From Balamuthia mandrillaris (Eukaryota > Discosea > Longamoebia > Balamuthiidae): a stretch of 64,000 nt of DNA. Positions within the stretch are counted from its first letter, which is position 1. Every line of letters begins with the position of its first letter. Of the stretch, positions 12,191 through 23,580 are shown piece by piece. The notes under the pieces are model-generated. The model searched no databases. It had not been told where the DNA came from and saw only the letters and a list, made by a program, of their open reading frames with translations. A program made the translations under genes and the position numbers. Location: contig JAVKOQ010000014.1 in the NCBI GenBank assembly GCA_031835245.1, positions 85,001-149,000 of the forward strand. Direction: 5' to 3'.

Positions 12191-15100
12191 CTACCTGTAA
12201 ACAGTCATGCTCTGACCCACTGAAAGACTCTTCATACAAACGAACGAAACCCGAAAACAGCCACGAAGGTTCAACAACTTGAGATGGGGACATGCCAAGG
12301 GAAGATCGTGCAAATGCTTGCCGCTGAGATTGCTGCACCAGGCCAGGTTCAGTTGCTCCAAACGAGGGCAGCCAGCGGCCAATTCCAGCAAAGCAGCATC
12401 CTGCAGGTTCTTGCACCAGGAGAGGTTGAGCACCTGAAGAGCTGGATGGCTTAAGGCAGCTGCAGAGATATGGTTATAGCCACGAAGGCCGAGGGAGAGG
12501 AGAGAAGGCCACTGGCGCAGCGCCCATCGGATGCTTTGCAGCGACTTGATGTTGTTGCAGTAGGAGAGGTCCACACATTCGAGTTTGGGGCAGCCCTCCG
12601 CCATCTTTTGGAGGACGCGGTCGGTAACGCGTTGGCAGTAGGCCAGTTTGAGGGTACGGAGGGCTGGGCAACCTTTCTCGAAGAAGGACATTAATGCGGA
12701 CTCGCTGAGTTGTTGGCACTCCTCCAGCGAAAGCAGCCGCAGGGCGGCCGTTCCGCTGGCCTTATTGTCCTGGAGCTGGTAATTGCCGTCGCTATTGTTG
12801 TTGGGGTATGAGGAGAGGTAAAGAAGGGTCTTGTCCGTAATCTTTTCACAAGAGGCCAAGTCCAAAGAGCGCAAACGAGGACAATGTTGAGCCAAAGCAG
12901 CCACCGCTTCGTCCGTAATGTTGATGCAGTTGTAGAGACCGACTTTCTTGAGATTTTGCTTGCTGCACCGTGCGATCTCGATGATGGCAGCATCTCCCAA
13001 GTTGCGGCACTTGGAGAAGTCGACTTTGCGGAGGCGAGGGCAGCAACGCGCCAGATGGATGACGCCCTCATCTGTGATTTCCTCGCAGGAAGAAAGGTTT
13101 AGAACTCGCAAGTTGGGGCAGGAATAGGCCAGGCTTCGCACGCCACTGTCCTCCAAGTTGACGCAGCGGCTGAGGTCCAAGGATTCGATCGTCAAGAAAG
13201 CACTTTTCTGAACGAGTTGATTTGTTGTTGTTTTGGGAAGAAGGAAAGAGAATGGAGAGGAAGTAGAAGACAAGGATGAGGCAGGTTGTTGCGGGGTGGG
13301 AAATGGGTAGAGTTTGGAAAAAGCGTCGTTTGTAATCATTTTACAGGCTGATAGGGTTAGCGCTTCCAAAGAGAGCCAGTGGCGGCTAAGAGTTTCAACT
13401 GTATTGTCTTTACAAAAGGATAAATTAGCATTTTATAATATTAATCGATGTGAGAGAGAGAGAGGGGGATATGAGAGAGAAAGAGAGGGAGAGCAGAGAG
13501 AGGGGGAGGGAGAGAGGGAGGGAGCAAACCTGTCAAAGAATCGCATCCAGTGAAGTGCAAGGAAGATATTTTGGGGCACGATCGGCAGAGGGTCTCGACC
13601 GCCGCATCGGTAATAGCTTTGCTTGATGTTCGGAAATAATAAAGATTAGGGCAGCGAGCCGCAATCATGGCCAAGCCCACATCAGTGATGTTACAGCCGC
13701 TCACATCCAAGTACACCACGCTTGCGCCAAGATGGCGGAACGCAGAGTCACCAAGTGCTCTGCATCCTCGTAGCGACATCCATTCCAACTGAGGGCAAGC
13801 CCTCGTCAGCTCTGCAACGGCTTCATCCGTTACTGCGGTTCCATCAAGCGCCAACCGACGCAAGGAAGCACGGCTGCGACTGCGAGCAAGTGCCAGTAGG
13901 GATTGTCCGTTGATACGGAAGCAACCGTCAAGATAGAGCTCCTCCAAGGCCTGGCAGCGGCGGCTCAAGCGAACTACCACATCATTGCCGATATTGTTGC
14001 ACCCAGAGAAAGAAATCTTGCGAAGATTACCACATAGGTTGGGACTGACGGGTTGCATGCAGGCATCTGTGAGGAGCTTGCATCCGCTTAGCGGCAATGA
14101 GGTAAGTGATGGTCCAACAAACTGAACCAAAGTTGTGTCGCGCATGGTGCCCTCTTTAACGCACTGTGTAATGAGTCGGAGCAAGAGTTCTTCTGGAAGT
14201 TTTCTGTTTGAGAATAAATATGAAAGTTAATAAAGGCAAAGAAGAGAGGGAGTAAGCAAGATATACGTACGTGTGGAGGGAAGGCAATTGGTGGATAGAA
14301 CGGGCAATGGAGGTGGCACAAAGAGTAGCAAGGCTACGAGGTGCACGTACTGAAGTCACATTAGCAATATTATTGTCAACAGCACCGCAAATGCTGCTAG
14401 TGTGGCTCGTGCACGTCGTATTATTCTGAACAATTGGTGAAGGGGATACATTCAGGGTACGGCGAGTACTATCAGCGAAGGTATTTCGAAAACAAAGGCT
14501 ATCAAAGGAAAGAGAAAAAAGCGTATGTACCTCACGGGCAGGATTCTCGCTTGGAGTATTAGTTTTGAGTCTCTTTTGGGGAATGGCAGCAGAAGAAGAA
14601 GAAGTGCGGTGGTCTTCGTGTGCTTCAACTGAGGGAGAGGGTCGGAGCAGAGAGTAATAGTAGTTGTGGTTGAGGAAGGCCAGATGGAAGAATCGAGTGG
14701 CAAGGCGTTCGGATTCCGCATTGGTGGGTGAGGAGTGATGGGATTGAATGAGCAGAGGACGTTGGAAGAGAGGGCTGTAGACAATGATATTACTCCGATG
14801 GAGATTGGCAAAGGCTTGCAAAGTAATGTGGTCTCCTTTCTGCTGTTCCTGTCGAACCCGTTGGCAATATTGCTCAATAAGGTCGATCTGCATGTGTTCT
14901 TCTTCCTCTTCTTCCTCACGCGCAGAGGAAGAGGGAGAAGGAGTTGGCTTTTTGGGGGGCAGATGGGAGATAAGGGGCTCGTAGAGGTGACGATTCGCGG
15001 CGATCTCATCGGCAATAGAAGCTCTGAGCAGCTTGTAGTTGTCTTCCTTATGGTAGAGCTGATGTGCCAAAGCACGGAATTGAGCATTCGGTCCGGGTTG

Positions 15101-16906
15101 CGCGCGCACCGCCCTCAAATTAAGCGCTTTGAGCTGTTGCTCCAAACGATTGTACTTGGCGGACACAGGAGCAAGTCCCTCCGAGGCCGACGCCAAGAAT
15201 TGCTTCCATGTTCTCTTGCGGAAAAAGGGTTGGGACTCGAAAGAAGCCGGCTCCTCTGTGGTACTGTTGTTGCCGTTGTGATTATTAACATCTTTTAGAG
15301 TTGACTGCTCATCGTCATTTTCATCACATTCACTTCGGGGTCGTTTTCTGGTTTCACGTTGTGGCTGTGGTTGGGTTTGCTGTGGTGGTTGATCGTGCGA
15401 AGCTTCCCGCAGGGAAGCAAGAAGGGAGTTCAGATGAACCAAAGCGGCATCAGCCTCCTTTTCGATGAGCTCCAGCTGAACAAAGGTTAGGCGCAGCGCC
15501 TCCAAGAATCTGGTCTTGAGGTGTTCGGTGGCTCTTGTGCAAACGTCAAAGCCTTCATCCACCAACTTTTTATATTTGTACGGCAACTTGAGCAGTGAGT
15601 GCACAAGAATAACAGCCGCAAATAGGAGAAGGGTAAGGGGTACCGCAGGAGAATCGCTTAGGGTGGACAAAACTGGTTGTGTTTCTTTAAAGGCCTCCGT
15701 GTATGCTTGCTTGACCATTTCCTGTTCCTTCTTGTCGGCGAGCTGTCTCAACACCACGGAAATGGTGGATGCTTTGCTGTGAAAAGTTTTAAAGGCTTGC
15801 ACTAATCGTGCAGAGTACTGTTGTCGATCCGGTCTAATGCCTGCAGAACCTGGAGGTAAAGAAGTTGTAGTGGTTGCAGCGGAAAGGCTTTGAGAGGTGC
15901 AAAGTTGGCACAGGCATTCGCCGAGTAAAAAAGAAGAGACTTGCTTGAGCTCCTCTAGTTTCGGTGGTACCGCTTCCCTAACAAGTGCTGTCCACAACTT
16001 GGTCGTCTCCGCCAGGAGAACCTTGCCATAATGAAATCGTGGTGTTCTCTGTTGCTTTTTGGTTTGCATTGTAGTCGCGTTCCCTGATTCTTGTTGCATG
16101 CTTTCTTCCTTCTCCTCTTCTTCTATCTCTTCACTCATCCTTTCTGTCTTTCGTTCGCGGAATCTTCTGCACTTCTCCAACTTGCGGCGCAGCGTCAAGT
16201 CCGCCGACTCCAGGCCATTCTCCCACTCGCTCTTCCAGCAAGTAAATCGTTGGGCAAATGGAGTGGCGGCCAATGCTTGAGCGGCAGCCGCTTGGCAGTC
16301 TGACTGCCCGTGTTTGCCCCGGTGTTCGTGCTGTTCTTGTTGCTGCTGTTGTTGCTGCAAAGTTCTTCGCTTCCTGGCTGAGGTGAGCAAAGCCATCATC
16401 ATTTGTTTGCGTGCGTTGTGGTGAGAGGGGTTGATCCTCATCTGTCCGTTGCGGCGGGGGCTCTGTGGCGCGTCGCCGAACATAAACTCCTCCTCCTCTG
16501 CCGCCGGCGGGGAGGAGGGACAGGAAGAGGGCGCTGCCTCGGCGGAAGCTGATGGGAGATCCGAAAGGCTCTCTCCGCCGCTCCGCTGTTGTTGCTGCTG
16601 CCGCTCCATCTGCTTTGTTGTTGCAGCCACACAACAAAGAAGAGATGGAGAAGAAGCAAAATGTGAGTGCAAAGAAGCGCGCTGGTCCAAGCTAACATGA
16701 GGAGGAGCAGAGGGAGGAAGGCAAGGAAGAAACAACGAAGCACGCACGAAAGGAGACTTGTTTGTGGAGAGCTCTTCTCGTGGGTTGTGCGGTTCACCCA
16801 GGCCCTCAACGGCAGGGGCCGCTGAGGAGCGTGGTTGGTGGTGGTGGGGGTGAGGGAACTCCTCCCGAGGCAGAAACATGTCGGCTAACCAAGCATTGCT
16901 GTCCAT
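12191..16906 (-). CDS. Degenerate OTU-domain / leucine-rich-repeat fusion protein
   Basis: Four exons (16906-14531, 14425-14271, 14203-13530, 13407-12191) total exactly 1,474 codons with matching phases. The N-terminal 250 residues are low-complexity with a poly-Gln run. Residues about 580-780 resemble an OTU deubiquitinase: FRALAHQLY, then KLLRASIADEIAANRHLYEPLI, IEQYCQRV, GDHITLQAFAN and NIIVYSP. The catalytic DGNC motif reads GPNA, so the nucleophile Cys is Ala. The usual HYNS His position reads YYYS. The C-terminal half begins SLATLCATSIARSI and LPEELLLRLI, then has more than a dozen cysteine-containing LRRs of the AMN1/F-box type (L..L.LS.C..ITD). These imply a ubiquitin-pathway adaptor rather than an enzyme. 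An alternative last exon could extend it to 11833. Confidence 0.85.
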
Positions 16907-17766
16907 TGCTTATTAAATATTATTTCTTTCGTGGCTTCTTCTGTGGTCTGCAATGCAACGGAATGGGCGAGAACAAGAAATAAGAAGAAAAAACAAGAAA
17001 AGAGAGAGAATAAAAATAAAACCTTCTTGGAGGGTGGCTCGTCTTTTTCTTGTCTTATTCTTCTCCTTTTATTATTATCACTTGAGGCTTCCACTCGGCC
17101 CTTTCCAGAAAAAGTTTTGGCTTCTTCTTTCAACAACGACAACAAAAAAAAACCCAAAGTTTTAAAAAAAAATAAATCCCTCCCAAGCCTTTGTCTCCCT
17201 CCGCTCTTTTTTTAATCAACCCGAAGAAGTACGAAGAGAGGGAAAGAAAGAGAAGATGAGAGAGAGAGAGAGAGAGAAAGAAAGAAAAAAGAACAAACCT
17301 TTTTTTTTCTCTGCTATTGAGATGGATTACTGGAAGCAAAAAAGTCTGCGGGGGGCGGGCGCTGCAAAGAGAGAAAGAGAGAAGCAGAGAAAGAGAGGAA
17401 GAAAAAAAAAATAGTCGCTAACTTTTCTGAACAAAGGGAGGACTTTTTCTGCTGATAATTGTTTTTTCTCTCGGAATTTTCGATTTTTTCCTTATTTCGG
17501 TGAAGCCACGAAAACGACCCCGTTACCATGGAAATATCCTTGAATAGTAAATAGATGATGTCATAGTTTCTTTTTATGGTAAATCATACGTCATCCACTA
17601 TTCGGGTTCTTTCGGTTTGCCTCATAGTCTACTATGGCAGCGTGTGCATGGGGCACAACGGGAAGGGATGGTTTATTGGTTGGGAGAGTCCCTACAGGGT
17701 TACAAAAAAAAAGAAGCTAAGGTAATACAACAAATAGGATTGAAGCAGAGTGATAAAAACAGTTCC
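16907..17766. other. Intergenic between two minus-strand genes
   Basis: No gene is recognised. The half nearest the OTU-LRR start is rich in A and T runs, including a T-run/A-run tract at about 17160-17173. The half nearest 17766 would hold the 3' UTR of the receptor gene. Confidence 0.6.
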
Positions 17767-20358
17767 TCACAGGTCGTCCAAGCCGTCGTCCTCGTCGGCA
17801 TCCACCTTGGCCACAACATCCGTGGTGATGGCCGACTTGCCCTCCCTCTTCTTCTGCATGAAGATGCGGAACATCTTGGTGAAGAACAGGAAGGACAACA
17901 CCAGGACCACTCCCAGGAGGATGGAGAAACCCACTAAGGCCAGGGCAGCATCCGGCACGGGCTCCAACAGGGCAAACGTGATGATGGCCAAGACCGTGGC
18001 GGTGGTGGCGCCATAGATGGCGAAGGAGATGAGGCGGGCCTCGTCAAAGCGCGTGGGTGTGCGCCCGACCAGCACGGCCAGCACCACACCGGCTAACATA
18101 ACGAGGGCCATGTAGAAGAACTGCACAGCGTACCAGACGGGGCGGTGCTCGGACTCGCAGATAAGCTGGTCCTTGTCGTCATCCACTGTGGAGGAGCGCT
18201 CAGGTGTCGGGGCATCCACCGCTGTCCATATCACCAAGATAACCTTTTCGTTTGTATAGTTAGTTAGTAGAGAACAACGGGAGAGAAAAGGTTGAAGGAG
18301 GAGACGAACCACTTCAATTGCGATAAGGGCCAAGTTGCAGAGCACCAATTGGACCCAGGAGTACTTGGGATACACAAGACCCTCATCCTTTTGGTTCAAC
18401 TTGGTCTTTAGGATAAAGGCCATCTTGGACACCAGGTTTCTGTTTGTTACAATGGAATAAGGATTAAACAAAAACAACAGAAGAGCAAAGAAGAAAGACA
18501 TACCCATAAATGAACACCCAAAACAGGATCATCCAAGGACGAGCAGCACATGTCCGATCGGTAGGCTCCCCAATGAATGGCAGGATGGCCAGACTGGCCA
18601 AGACCAACCCCGTCAACACCACAAAGTTGAAGACAAGGCCGGTCTGCTTCAGGATGAGTGCTTTGTCCGCATGAACCGCCGCAAAGTAGACAAAGAAGAG
18701 CAAGACGAGGAGGGCTATGAAGCTGGTAAGGAAGAGAAGGGCCAGGAAGACAATGGCCACCGGGTCGTTCCACTCCACCCAGGTGAGCTCCTTGGGGACC
18801 TGGCAGGTGTCAGCGCCGAAGCTGCTGCGCAGCTGCTCGAATGAGTTCTCTGAGGGAACAAAAGGAGGAGGGCATGTGGCCGCCAATACGCTGCGTCGTT
18901 GGAGGTACTCGGCGCGCATGTCGGCGCAGGTGTCAAAGACCACTTCCTCAGGGGCAGGAGCGGTTACATAGAGACAGTTTGCGTCGTCGGTGGCTTCGTA
19001 GTTGTGGATAACGACGAGGTACATGGTGGTTTGGACGTCGTCGCTTTGTAGCGGGACTACCGTATATTTACCTGTTATACAACCTCCTGATGCCAAGTCA
19101 CCTACATTTGTGCCATAGTAGCTATAATTAGTAGCAGCTCGATTAATCGATAAGAGAGAGAAGAGAAGAGAACGATGAAGAGAACAACGAAGAGAAGATA
19201 AGGTTGAAGAGAAGATGAAGGGGCAATAAAAACAGTACCTTCCAAGACGCCATCTTCCATGACGGTATCATTCACCAAAAAGACAGTTTGCTTGATGAGA
19301 GGATTGCTGGCGCGATAAATGCTGCTTTGTTGGTAGAAGAAGCCGGCGTCTACCAACGCTTGTGCCAATTCTCCAGCCTTAGTACCCACAAAGACATTTT
19401 CAGTTGGGTAGTCTTTGTTCGTCGTAGCTATTTTGTTTTAAAAAGGAAAGAGAAAATAAATGAATAAAACTGCACTAAAACGGGGGACAAAAGCATAATA
19501 AAGCCAAACAAAAAGAGTGGGAGGGTACATTGGTTAAAGTCGGGATGGACCAACAACAGGCCACTCTGGTCAAAGATGAAGCACTGAGCATCACGAGAGG
19601 CATCATCTTTGCCCAACCAGCAAACATTGGTCGGCTCTAACACCGTCTCCTGGAAGTCGGTGTAGGAAAAGTCTAAGCCGATGATGCCCACGTGGTTGAC
19701 CCCTTGCGATGCGGTGGTTGTGGACAGAGTCAACACTGTACCCAATCCAAATGCATCTACATAAGGACTAGAAGGAAAAAAAAGAACCAGTTAGACGCAA
19801 ATAAAACAAAAAAGAAAGAAGTAAATCATTACCTGGATAACACAACTTTGCCAGGTTGACTGGCAGCACGATCACGCCAAGGACGAGCGGTAGAATCGTA
19901 AGTGGGAGTAGAGGCGGAACCAGTTGGGAAGGAGTAGATGGAGCCAAGAGGACTGCCTGCATAGATCCAAAGCACCTTGTACTTATCGTAAATGGTAGTG
20001 TTCTTGAAAGCATCCATCCAGTCGGTTAAAATGGGCCAAGCCACCATCATATCATCTTTAACCTCTTCTTGGATGCCTGAAATAGCCAAACAATTATATT
20101 GTTAGGAAAGGGAACAGGAGGAGAAGAAAGGGCAGCAGAGAAATGAGAGAGAGACAGAGAGATTAAACGCGCACCTGGATTGGAGCTACCAGGTAATTCA
20201 TTGACATACTCCATCAACGGACCGATGAGTGATACCTCATTTTGTAGAAAGTATTGACTGTCAAGCCATCCTTGGGCTGCATACTATAATGATGATTATT
20301 GTAAGCATGGGAAGGCAAGCCATTACAAGAAAGCTTGAATACTTATCATGATATCGAG

Positions 20359-20403
<45 letters not shown>

Positions 20404-22448
20404 ATACACACCTGAAAGCATCCAGTGTCAAAGTTAACACCGCCGACCTTCTGATATTCGTCGAAATAGTCTCTCACGGGCGCTGGAATGGAGCCGCTGT
20501 AGTTATCGATCTTATAATAATAGTAGGTTATGGACTCGTCGCGATGGTAGGAGGAAGGTCGGAATATCTTTCTCTCCAGCCGTTCATCAGAGAGCGCACG
20601 CACAGCAAGGAAGGGAAAAGAGGCCAGTTTCTGCCAAAAGTAGGTCATGTTTACTGCTTCTTGAACAATACCTTCGTATGTTGTATCGCCTATTATTATA
20701 AACATCAAGTTTCACTTTCATTAGTATTTTGTGAGAGAGCAAGAGAGATGAGAGAAGGATAGGGAGCATACCAGCAGGAAGATCAACGTTCTGCAAGATA
20801 CGAACAAAACCGGATTGTTCATTGAACATTGGGTCTCGCACGTTCTCATTGAACTCCTCTGTGGGCTCATACGTGCTGATGTCATAATGCAATGGAGAGC
20901 GGGTGGTGGTCTGGAAGGACCAGGTCTTGCTGCGATCCCTCATGACAGGGTGAAGTACAGTGTCTCCATAGGAGTTCACCAGGAAACCGTAATCGAAGCG
21001 CACCTCAAAGGACTGCTCCGCAAAGATGAGGTCATCGAGGATGAAGTCAATTCCCACCACACCGATGGGTAAGGCCAAGGCACCGTCTTCACCAGCTCCA
21101 ACTGGAAACACTGCAAGACTTGCGCTGAGCATTACGCCCACTGTTGTGGTTTTGTATGTATGTATGTATGTATGTATGTACGTATGTGTTGTGTTGTGTT
21201 GTGTTGTGGTTGTGTTGTGTTGTGTTGTGTTGTGTTGTGTTGTGTTGTGTTGTGTTGTGTTGTGTTGTGTTGTGTTGTGTTAGATAAGTTTAACTTGGAG
21301 AAAGAGAGTGAGTTAGAAAAGTACTTGTAAGAGAATTTGTGCGAGTAAAGCCTAGAGACATGAGCCAAGAGGGATCACCGGCAGCGTTTTGGCCAACGGT
21401 AGCCAAGAAGGCACTGTAGTTGGTTACATTCTTGTAAAGGGTTTCTCCATCACCTGATGCAAATGAAAAGGAGGAGCCACTGGAAGAACAGGCCAAGACC
21501 GAGGCTATATTTTAAAATAACCGTTAGCAATAACAACTCTGGAACAAGCAAAAAAGAGAAGACACTATTGTACCTTGGCTATTGTCTTCGCTGCCAACAG
21601 TGTAGATGAGAGAGGTTGGCAACGTACCACTCAAACTATTGCATTTAAAGTAACAGAGATTATGATTACTCTACGATAGAAAGAGGGCCAGGAGAGAAGC
21701 GGGGTAGAGAAGAGAGAGAAACGGGTACCTGTCAGGAGAAGGAATGTTGCGGCCGGAACCGATAAAGATGAGGGCGTTCTGACAGGCCTGAATACTTCTT
21801 CCTGGTACGGTGATGCCGCTTTCAAGCATATAATCGGTGCTTTCTCGTTCAAAAATGGTGAGAGCTTCCTCAAAGGCAGCTCTTGTGCCGGCTCCGCTGC
21901 GTGCTTCAGAACGTTCCCTGTTTTTACGATGTTGCATTAGGTTTGTAATGCATTAAAAGAATATTTTAAAAAGAAACCTACAAGGCTTCAACAACAGCAA
22001 CAAGAGCCTCGATGGCTTGGGGAGTTGCTCTCACATAGCCATCGACACTGCTAACACATTCTGGTCGGTTCATTTCATTGCCAGAAACCTTTTCAAAAGA
22101 AACTATGAGCAAGAGAGAGAAGAGAGAAAGAGAAGAGAGAAGAGAGAAGAGAGAAGAGAGAGAGAACGGAGGGAGGGAGAGGCAGAGATATATAGCAAGA
22201 GAGAGAGAGAGAGAGAACAAAAGAAAAACAATACATACAATAAGAAGCATAACGTGATCAGACTCATGGAGAGAGTTCAATACAGCTATGGTGGCCAACT
22301 TGATGTACTCAAAGTCATCTCCGGTGTCTCTTGAGGTATCGATGATCAACACCAAGCCCTTATAACCTGTCAAAGCGGTAGTGTACCTTCACGACCCCAA
22401 GGGTCAGCAGAGTGAGACAAAGAGAGAAAGAGAGAGCGAGAGAGAGAC

Positions 22449-22490
<42 letters not shown>

Positions 22491-23580
22491 TAAACAAAAG
22501 AAAGAGAAGAATATGAACCAAGACTGAAAGCGGGCGTCCAAGCTGTCCGTGTTGTTGAACTGAAAGTGAGGATAATAGCGAGTAAGCCCCGTGTTGGCGC
22601 CGCCAAAGTACTGGAAGGCCACCGTGGGGTCGGCCTGCCTGTTGCTCTGGAACAGCTCCTCCAGCTCCCCGGAGAGGTTGATCTCATAGTCCAAGCGAGC
22701 GTTGCTCTGCGACCACCCAGGCACCTGTTGGTACACGTGTTAGAAAGAAGACAGAGAGAAGGAAGCCAAATGTATGGGGTCGGCTCTCTCATACCACAAC
22801 GGCAGAGGTGGTGATGTCGGCAGGGAGGTCGCCTCTGGCAGAGGTGTAGGGATAGGCTCCGTAGAGGTCGGCGGGAGCGGTGGCAGCGTCCACGTAGTCG
22901 GCGGAGCCGGAGTAGCTGGCGTTGGCGTGCGCTTCTTGGATCTTGTCCCTCAGTTTCTTTTTGTTGTGTTGGGTGTTGTCAGCTGTTTGTCGTTTAGAGA
23001 GAGAGCGAGAGAGAGAGAGAGAGAGAGAGAGAAGTACCTCCAACAAGCTAACTTTGTCGCGAAGGATTCTTTCAATGGTGGTAGCAAAAGTGGCTGCCTC
23101 CAAATCTCCAGAGCTCACTTCGTTTTGGATGAGAGCGCGATCAAACGACTTTTTTTTCCAGCGGAGAACAAAAATGAGAAAAAAAGTAAATCTTTTCTTG
23201 TTACAATGCAGAGAGTGAGAAACGAGAAGAGAAACGAACGTCGACATAACGACTGGGCTGCATAACATTGTCCCGAAGGAACGCAATGTCAGCCACCATA
23301 TTGTTACGCCATCCCTGTATGCTATGTTCAGCCGAAAAAAAAAAAGAGAAGAGCAGTCAGTAACGCTCTTTTTTTTTTCAAAACAGCAAGAAGAAGAAGA
23401 AGAAGAAAGGGGTCTTTTTTGAATAAAGTACGACAAAGAGTTTTACCGTGTAGCATTGTAATAGGTGGTTTGCGCTTGGGCCTGAGCCGCAGGACCTATA
23501 ACGGCGCAGAGGCACAGCGCAAACAGCACAGCAAGCGAGCCGCTAGTCCACGGCGCTGTAGCGAAAGAGGTGCATCTCAT
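17767..23580 (-). CDS. VWA-Cache ectodomain receptor with class C GPCR seven-helix domain
   Basis: The ATG at 23580 starts a signal peptide (about 35 residues ending PAAQAQ). More than a dozen exons follow. An N-terminal region with FGGANTGLTRYYP and DARFQSWY matches the VWA-N segment of calcium-channel alpha-2-delta/CACHD1 proteins. A VWA domain follows; its MIDAS reads DTSRD rather than DxSxS. Cache-type modules then carry VVGIDFILDDL, YDSTARPWRDRA and VGIIGLDFSYTDF. The last three exons encode seven hydrophobic helices, starting at WNDPVAIVF. Class C hallmarks are IGEPTDRTC, RPWMILFWVFIYGNLVSK and a second extracellular-loop Cys (LICESEHRP). The acidic cytoplasmic tail ends near 17767. It probably senses an extracellular small molecule and signals through G proteins. 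Splice phases of the 7TM exons are consistent (FIYG/NLVSK). Confidence 0.85.
20360..20400 (-). repeat. (CT)n in a receptor-gene intron
   Basis: A 40-bp dinucleotide tract in the intron following the exon ending GGVNFDTGCFQ, reading CT on the coding strand just after the donor. Confidence 0.9.
21153..21283. repeat. (TATG)n then (GTGTT)n repeats in a receptor-gene intron
   Basis: Short TATG tetramers (21153-21188) lead into about 18 GTGTT pentamers (to 21283). They lie inside one intron of the minus-strand receptor gene and generate spurious open frames. Confidence 0.9.
22430..22490 (-). repeat. (CT)n-rich tract in a receptor-gene intron
   Basis: GA-rich on the plus strand and so CT-rich on the coding strand. 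It lies in the intron following the VWA-N exon ending DARFQSW. Confidence 0.85.

Follow-up and report, generated by a model that had tools for sequence, protein, structure and literature searches.

A minus-strand gene of Balamuthia mandrillaris, a member of the Amoebozoa, raises the question of whether an ectodomain of the alpha2delta/CACHD1 type can be joined, within a single polypeptide, to the seven-transmembrane (7TM) core of a class C G-protein-coupled receptor (GPCR). The gene lies in a stretch of 64,000 nucleotides, hereafter the window, that corresponds to C13:85001-149000 in a genome set of 64.8 Mb and 775 contigs. Taken as a whole, the locus probably holds one intact gene for a ligand-sensing receptor built in this way. 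The parts of this reading differ in strength: judged from the genomic sequence, the fusion itself appears almost certain, ligand sensing with a G-protein output is somewhat favored, and the placement of the pocket in the second Cache module is tentative. The host is a free-living amoeba that is at times pathogenic (PMC10471605).

Read by hand on the minus strand, the gene has 19 exons whose in-frame splicing yields a protein of 1337 residues. It runs from an ATG at 23580 to a stop codon that ends at 17767, and these codons are exactly the limits given by an earlier note on this DNA, which had proposed such a receptor. Each of the 18 introns has GT-AG ends, the phases match, and no stop interrupts the frame; the acceptor of exon 17 at 19101 is AG. 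The spliced product is identical letter for letter to GenBank QOT17_002391 (P0001), annotated as “hypothetical protein”, which bears out the statement of the earlier note that the intron phases join the exons into one protein. The two N-terminal signatures that it had listed are also present: FGG..TG..RYYP lies within the motif YFGGANTGLTRYYP at residues 202-215, and DxRxxxWY takes the form DARFQSWY at residues 226-233, with its tryptophan codon split by intron 5. As a whole, the observation made in that note is confirmed and its interpretation is supported. With coordinates as window positions and residues numbered along P0001, the exons are as follows.

Exon 1, 23447..23580, minus strand: start codon and signal-peptide-like hydrophobic segment, residues 9-36 (gene model, hydropathy)
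Exon 2, 23240..23321, minus strand: N-terminal region, aligned with alpha2delta-1
Exon 3, 23038..23148, minus strand: N-terminal region, aligned with alpha2delta-1
Exon 4, 22795..22956, minus strand: Pfam VWA_N match (residues 155-218) begins
Exon 5, 22519..22724, minus strand: VWA_N core and first lobe of double Cache 1, with YFGG..TG..RYYP and DARFQSW
Exon 6, 22239..22386, minus strand: first part of VWA (DTSRD)
Exon 7, 21982..22088, minus strand: VWA region, aligned up to residue 302, remainder by position
Exon 8, 21729..21917, minus strand: VWA region, by position only
Exon 9, 21574..21635, minus strand: VWA region, by position only
Exon 10, 21325..21504, minus strand: end of VWA region and return to double Cache 1, by position only
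Exon 11, 20772..21140, minus strand: second lobe of double Cache 1, with GVVGIDF and FLVNSYGDTVLHP
Exon 12, 20412..20689, minus strand: linker, then start of double Cache 2
Exon 13, 20175..20283, minus strand: double Cache 2
Exon 14, 19833..20076, minus strand: double Cache 2, including the Tyr/Phe, Arg, Trp motif
Exon 15, 19529..19767, minus strand: second lobe of double Cache 2, with SSPYVD and GLDF
Exon 16, 19239..19427, minus strand: aligned CACHD1 similarity ends here (residue 922)
Exon 17, 18504..19101, minus strand: cysteine-containing stretch (residues 937-1045) unaligned to CACHD1, then transmembrane helices TM1 and TM2 and the beginning of TM3
Exon 18, 18310..18439, minus strand: remainder of TM3, second intracellular loop, beginning of TM4
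Exon 19, 17767..18243, minus strand: remainder of TM4 through TM7, cytoplasmic tail ending in DDGLDDL, stop codon

The predicted order of domains is a signal peptide, a VWA domain set in a first double Cache (dCache), a second dCache, a cysteine-containing stretch, and a 7TM core resembling those of metabotropic glutamate (mGlu) and GABA-B receptors. This whole order is kept at three loci, namely in the window (C13) and on contigs C467 and C8. The C467 copy is identical to that of the window at 1286 of 1340 aligned positions, and its 18 introns are likewise all GT-AG. The C8 copy shares 60% identity with the window copy; along successive segments from the N to the C terminus, the matches are 89/179, 134/219, 100/145, 207/333, 57/104 and 167/261, from which it follows that the ectodomain and the 7TM core are conserved to a similar degree. 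The GenBank model at C8 (P0002, QOT17_001653) starts at the equivalent of window residue 53 and seems to be missing its first exon; upstream of it (L016 777-990), a signal-peptide-like frame with a fitting junction can be discerned by eye. Contig C98 carries only a 120-base fragment at 92.5% identity. Contig C229 was considered as a further copy and rejected, since it duplicates window positions 13425-22035 at 99.99% identity over 7857 bases and 99.88% over 851; the duplication apparently breaks at a simple repeat in intron 10.

The class C assignment is carried by the last three exons. The earlier note had left it to the Pfam 7tm_3 model to succeed or fail there, and the match runs over positions 2-251 of the 251 in the model (residues 1046-1302; 116.9 bits, cut-off 33.5, E 1.6e-33), beginning, by arithmetic, at 18775 within exon 17 (598 bases, residues 937-1136). 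All of the class C motifs that had been picked out by eye are in place. The TM3 cysteine of CAARPW (C1121) and that of the second extracellular loop (ECL2; C1208) are kept in all three paralogs, as is the WxDP ahead of TM1 (WNDP at residues 1047-1050 of the window protein), and FIYGNLVSK spans the junction of exons 17 and 18. A third-loop FDEAR, also present in 3/3, aligns with FNEAK of mGlu8. Hydropathy of the 7TM region resolves seven clusters in P0001, in our own reading, and six above an equal cut-off in P0002; segments above the cut-off occur in the ectodomain too (two in P0001, one in P0002). The 7tm_3 match, the two cysteines and FDEAR place the core beside the mGlu and GABA-B receptors. 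Unlike those receptors, which carry a Venus flytrap (ANF domain; PMC12716839), the Balamuthia protein has no Pfam match to such an ectodomain up to E 10.

What stands above the helices is instead an ectodomain of the alpha2delta/CACHD1 type. VWA_N is matched at residues 155-218 of the window protein with 40.2 bits and in P0002 with 48.0 bits (cut-off 34.7), such that both proteins scanned, 2/2, carry VWA_N and 7tm_3 above their cut-offs, with scores far beyond chance. When a profile of the three paralogs was searched against solved structures (PDB), CACHD1 (8S7C) ranked first (E 1.4e-29), aligning over residues 175-286 (25.6 bits) and 486-922 (77.2 bits). Second came alpha2delta-1 (E 8e-17), with an alignment over residues 18-302 that takes in the N-terminal region, VWA_N and the beginning of VWA; a second stretch, at 442-571, is not significant. 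The next matches were mGlu and GABA-B receptors, at about residues 1046-1323, and thus the alpha2delta-1, CACHD1 and receptor matches fall in order along a single chain. From the order of the Pfam and profile matches, the ectodomain shares the linear arrangement of the alpha2delta/CACHD1 unit. The VWA may lie inside the first dCache: both of its flanks align, but residues 303-441 do not, and the Pfam VWA model stays below its cut-off. The presence of two dCaches is indicated by the longer CACHD1 alignment, which takes in the last portion of the first and the greater part of the second. In this respect the predicted ectodomain is richer than the earlier note had stated, being an alpha2delta/CACHD1-type unit in which a second double Cache follows the first. 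The two kinds of protein part at the membrane: alpha2delta is GPI-anchored (attached through glycosylphosphatidylinositol) and cleaved (PMC9901441), and CACHD1 crosses the membrane once and carries a Frizzled-interaction domain (PMC7615972), whereas in the Balamuthia protein neither a GPI anchor nor a single C-terminal helix concludes the chain, and a 7TM domain follows.

Several observations weigh against this reading. The Pfam dCache_1 model reaches only 15.4 bits against a cut-off of 45, and plain VWA is seen in P0002 alone, below its cut-off (12.8 versus 23.8 bits). Residues 303-441, where the back part of the VWA is expected, lie outside the reported profile alignments, and the cysteine-containing residues 937-1045, before TM1, align with neither alpha2delta-1, CACHD1 nor the 7TM structures. 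TM7 reads FFTK, without the proline of the F-x-P-K that class C receptors usually carry. AlphaFold models, built from 2 sequences each, were too poor for use, with a mean pLDDT (the predicted confidence score) of 28.2 for the ectodomain and 46.9 for the stalk and 7TM region, although the latter model does show seven long helices. In the ligand-site comparison considered below, the amino-acid motif of the first dCache is broken in all three paralogs, with loss of the arginine that is essential for gabapentin in alpha2delta-1, and in the second dCache the last first-lobe tyrosine is replaced by arginine in 3/3. The Pfam shortfall is filled by the CACHD1 and alpha2delta-1 structural matches, except at residues 303-441; the VWA-plus-Cache ectodomain of the earlier note therefore stands on those alignments, and its plain VWA and dCache modules remain below the Pfam cut-offs. 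NCBIfam gave no match near any cut-off.

The closest pair of copies is under purifying selection. By the Nei-Gojobori method (own script), the window copy and C467 differ with a synonymous rate (dS) of 0.178 and a nonsynonymous rate (dN) of 0.020, a ratio of 0.112. The ratio is 0.155 over codons 1-460 (VWA), 0.101 over codons 461-940 (Cache) and 0.093 over the remainder (stalk and 7TM), and the corresponding dS values are 0.068, 0.314 and 0.174; this unevenness may reflect gene conversion.

How might such a receptor work? In the favored reading, it would sit in the plasma membrane, where a small ligand, with amino-acid-like or amine-like compounds as the likeliest candidates, would bind the second dCache; the Cache/VWA unit would shift upon binding, probably within a dimer, the stalk would relay this shift to the helices, and the 7TM domain would activate heterotrimeric G proteins. 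G-alpha genes do exist in the genome, with 63 matches, some of them falling within a single gene and some being weaker, GTPase-like and below the cut-off. The ligand-binding proposal draws on the alpha2delta amino-acid motif, YxxxRxWY in the first lobe and Y...D in the second (PMC9901441). In the PDB alignment, alpha2delta-1 itself reads YDVRRRPWY, where the arginine is the third and the first spacing is four residues. Placed by eye in the three paralogs, as were the VWA loops, the motif in the second dCache reads Tyr/Tyr/Phe (the phenylalanine belonging to C8), Arg, Trp and Arg, followed by Tyr796 and Asp826, and the segment RPWRDRAASQP is invariant. Since the second dCache retains a nearly complete motif, with its Arg, Trp, Tyr and Asp, and the first has lost it, the pocket is likelier to reside in the second.

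The alternative that survives best, unlikely as it is, holds that the ectodomain binds proteins, in adhesion or as a co-receptor in the manner of CACHD1, and that the 7TM core provides an output in which no small ligand takes part. CACHD1, the best solved relative, does bind the receptor proteins Frizzled and LRP6 (PMC7615972). However, the alignment stops at CACHD1 position 913 of 1102, and because the Frizzled-interaction domain is described as lying in the C-terminal region of CACHD1 (PMC7615972), beyond the end of the alignment, it has no aligned counterpart in the Balamuthia protein.

It is less plausible still that the protein is a “metabotropic alpha2delta”, whose ectodomain, like alpha2delta, would have the docking on a four-domain voltage-gated channel as its main role, the 7TM domain acting as an anchor or channel regulator. 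Candidate partners are encoded: among 39 Ion_trans matches in all, rows of matches occur at C120, C128 and C597, each with one TxEDW-like pore motif, and these loci are perhaps four-domain voltage-gated channels. In addition, VWA_N was found at least three times in the genome, each time within such a fusion, and a whole-protein search gave ectodomain matches at least at C13/C229, C467 and C8 and in the C98 fragment; neither search, both giving lower bounds, returned a stand-alone alpha2delta-like ectodomain. Against docking stands the VWA metal site, or MIDAS, which alpha2delta-1 and -2 require for their channel role (PMC9901441) and which, by eye, looks incomplete in all three paralogs, with DTSxD in loop 1 and a GSG lacking the aspartate in loop 3.

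The prospects are poor for a free amino acid receptor that, like alpha2delta-1, would use the first dCache. There the Trp, Tyr and distal Asp of the motif are kept in 3/3, but the key arginine is Gln/Gln/Ser and the first tyrosine is Leu/Phe/Val.

It is very improbable that gene prediction has misjoined two neighboring genes, one alpha2delta-like and the other a class C receptor. The predicted join is drawn from genomic sequence, and no exon contains both parts, given that CACHD1 similarity ends in exon 16 (residue 922) and the 7TM domain starts in exon 17 (residue 1046). Yet the intron that separates the final Cache exon from the one encoding the stalk and the start of the 7TM domain measures 137 bases in the window, 315 at C467 and about 70 at C8, which is short for intergenic space; together with an order of domains that is the same at all three loci, this makes a mistaken join unlikely. 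The GenBank model also agrees with ours throughout, and residues 937-1045 contain only two methionines (963 and 998) and no signal-like start. An assembly chimera or decayed gene is barely credible, for although the C229 repeat resembles what duplicated assembly pieces produce, the frame is intact, two diverged loci are intact as well, and the dN/dS ratio is low.

The preferred reading, a class C receptor with an alpha2delta/CACHD1-type head, describes an architecture that is, on sequence grounds, real and conserved and, as far as the literature was searched, undescribed: no class C receptor with a VWA or alpha2delta plan was found in open-licence publications. To our knowledge, what the alpha2delta/CACHD1 heads of animals sense is an open question, and a head of this type fused to a 7TM core would give a direct read-out of it. 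It is quite doubtful, though conceivable, that the unit originated as the sensor of a 7TM receptor, or was put to that use at an early stage, reading nutrients via its Cache pockets and coupling to both G proteins and a four-domain voltage-gated channel; if so, the alpha2delta and CACHD1 proteins of animals would have retained this head, and the receptor core would either have been lost or never have been part of them.

The closest known designs share only part of this plan. GPR158/GPR179 (mGlyR) also carry a Cache-type ectodomain above a class C 7TM core (PMC12716839), in their case one Cache and an EGF domain, unlike the VWA_N/VWA and two double Caches of the Balamuthia protein, which has no EGF match. 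An eLife 2025 paper reports that its screen detected no Cache in any non-metazoan glutamate-family GPCR (PMC12716839). Cache plus class C outside animals nevertheless has a precedent in TP_7830 of Thalassiosira pseudonana, a non-animal glutamate-family receptor with Cache_1 (PMC3251606); that paper does not mention VWA. Neither VWA nor von Willebrand appears in the main texts of PMC12716839, PMC10445921, PMC3251606 and PMC4302439, the Physarum genome paper (PMC4758236) mentions VWA once, for cyclic-nucleotide-binding proteins, and two papers on Balamuthia (PMC10471605, PMC8569187) use no GPCR terms in their main texts. Protein homolog searches, in which the 8000 most word-sharing candidates, or 112, were scored, returned only two Balamuthia proteins; as they also failed to return mGlu receptors and CACHD1, which the PDB search finds, they are no evidence of absence elsewhere. 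Two peptide patterns gave 210 stretches in bacterial and archaeal genome contigs, and two patterns gave 30 in viral contigs, with no relative among them. Among amoebozoans, Acanthamoeba is a close relative of Balamuthia. Amoebozoan family 3 receptors are described with ANF, BMP-type or no recognized ectodomains, and their reported number is 0 in Acanthamoeba and Protostelium (PMC10445921); Acanthamoeba is likewise reported to be without metabotropic-glutamate-like receptors (PMC4053784).

Elsewhere in the genome, 7tm_3 matches fall on seven contigs, or six loci when C229 is counted under C13. The class C receptor on C147 (L013 3902-5928) has a sub-threshold 5_nucleotid_C match upstream of its 7TM domain (20.4 versus 23.6 bits), a combination reported for choanoflagellates; 5_nucleotid_C is among the ectodomains listed in PMC12716839. 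Class C receptors with CUB domains ahead of the 7TM core lie on C207 (L014 4146-7704), where Pfam shows these domains, and on C7 (L015, minus strand), whose sequence agrees with that of C207 at 91% over 5634 bases. The tail sequence DDGLDDL followed by a stop, located in the window at 17767-17790 on the minus strand, occurs in six places, representing five loci, in the 64.8 Mb (C7, C8, C13, C207, C229 and C467); a looser pattern finds the identical six, and a reversed control finds 0. Each site is a class C receptor gene, the ectodomains differ, and in the 7TM domain the C207 and C7 proteins are only 30-36% identical to the window receptor. This distribution suggests a common function for the tail, such as trafficking or the binding of a scaffold partner. 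The C147 receptor ends in the related DDLDDL.

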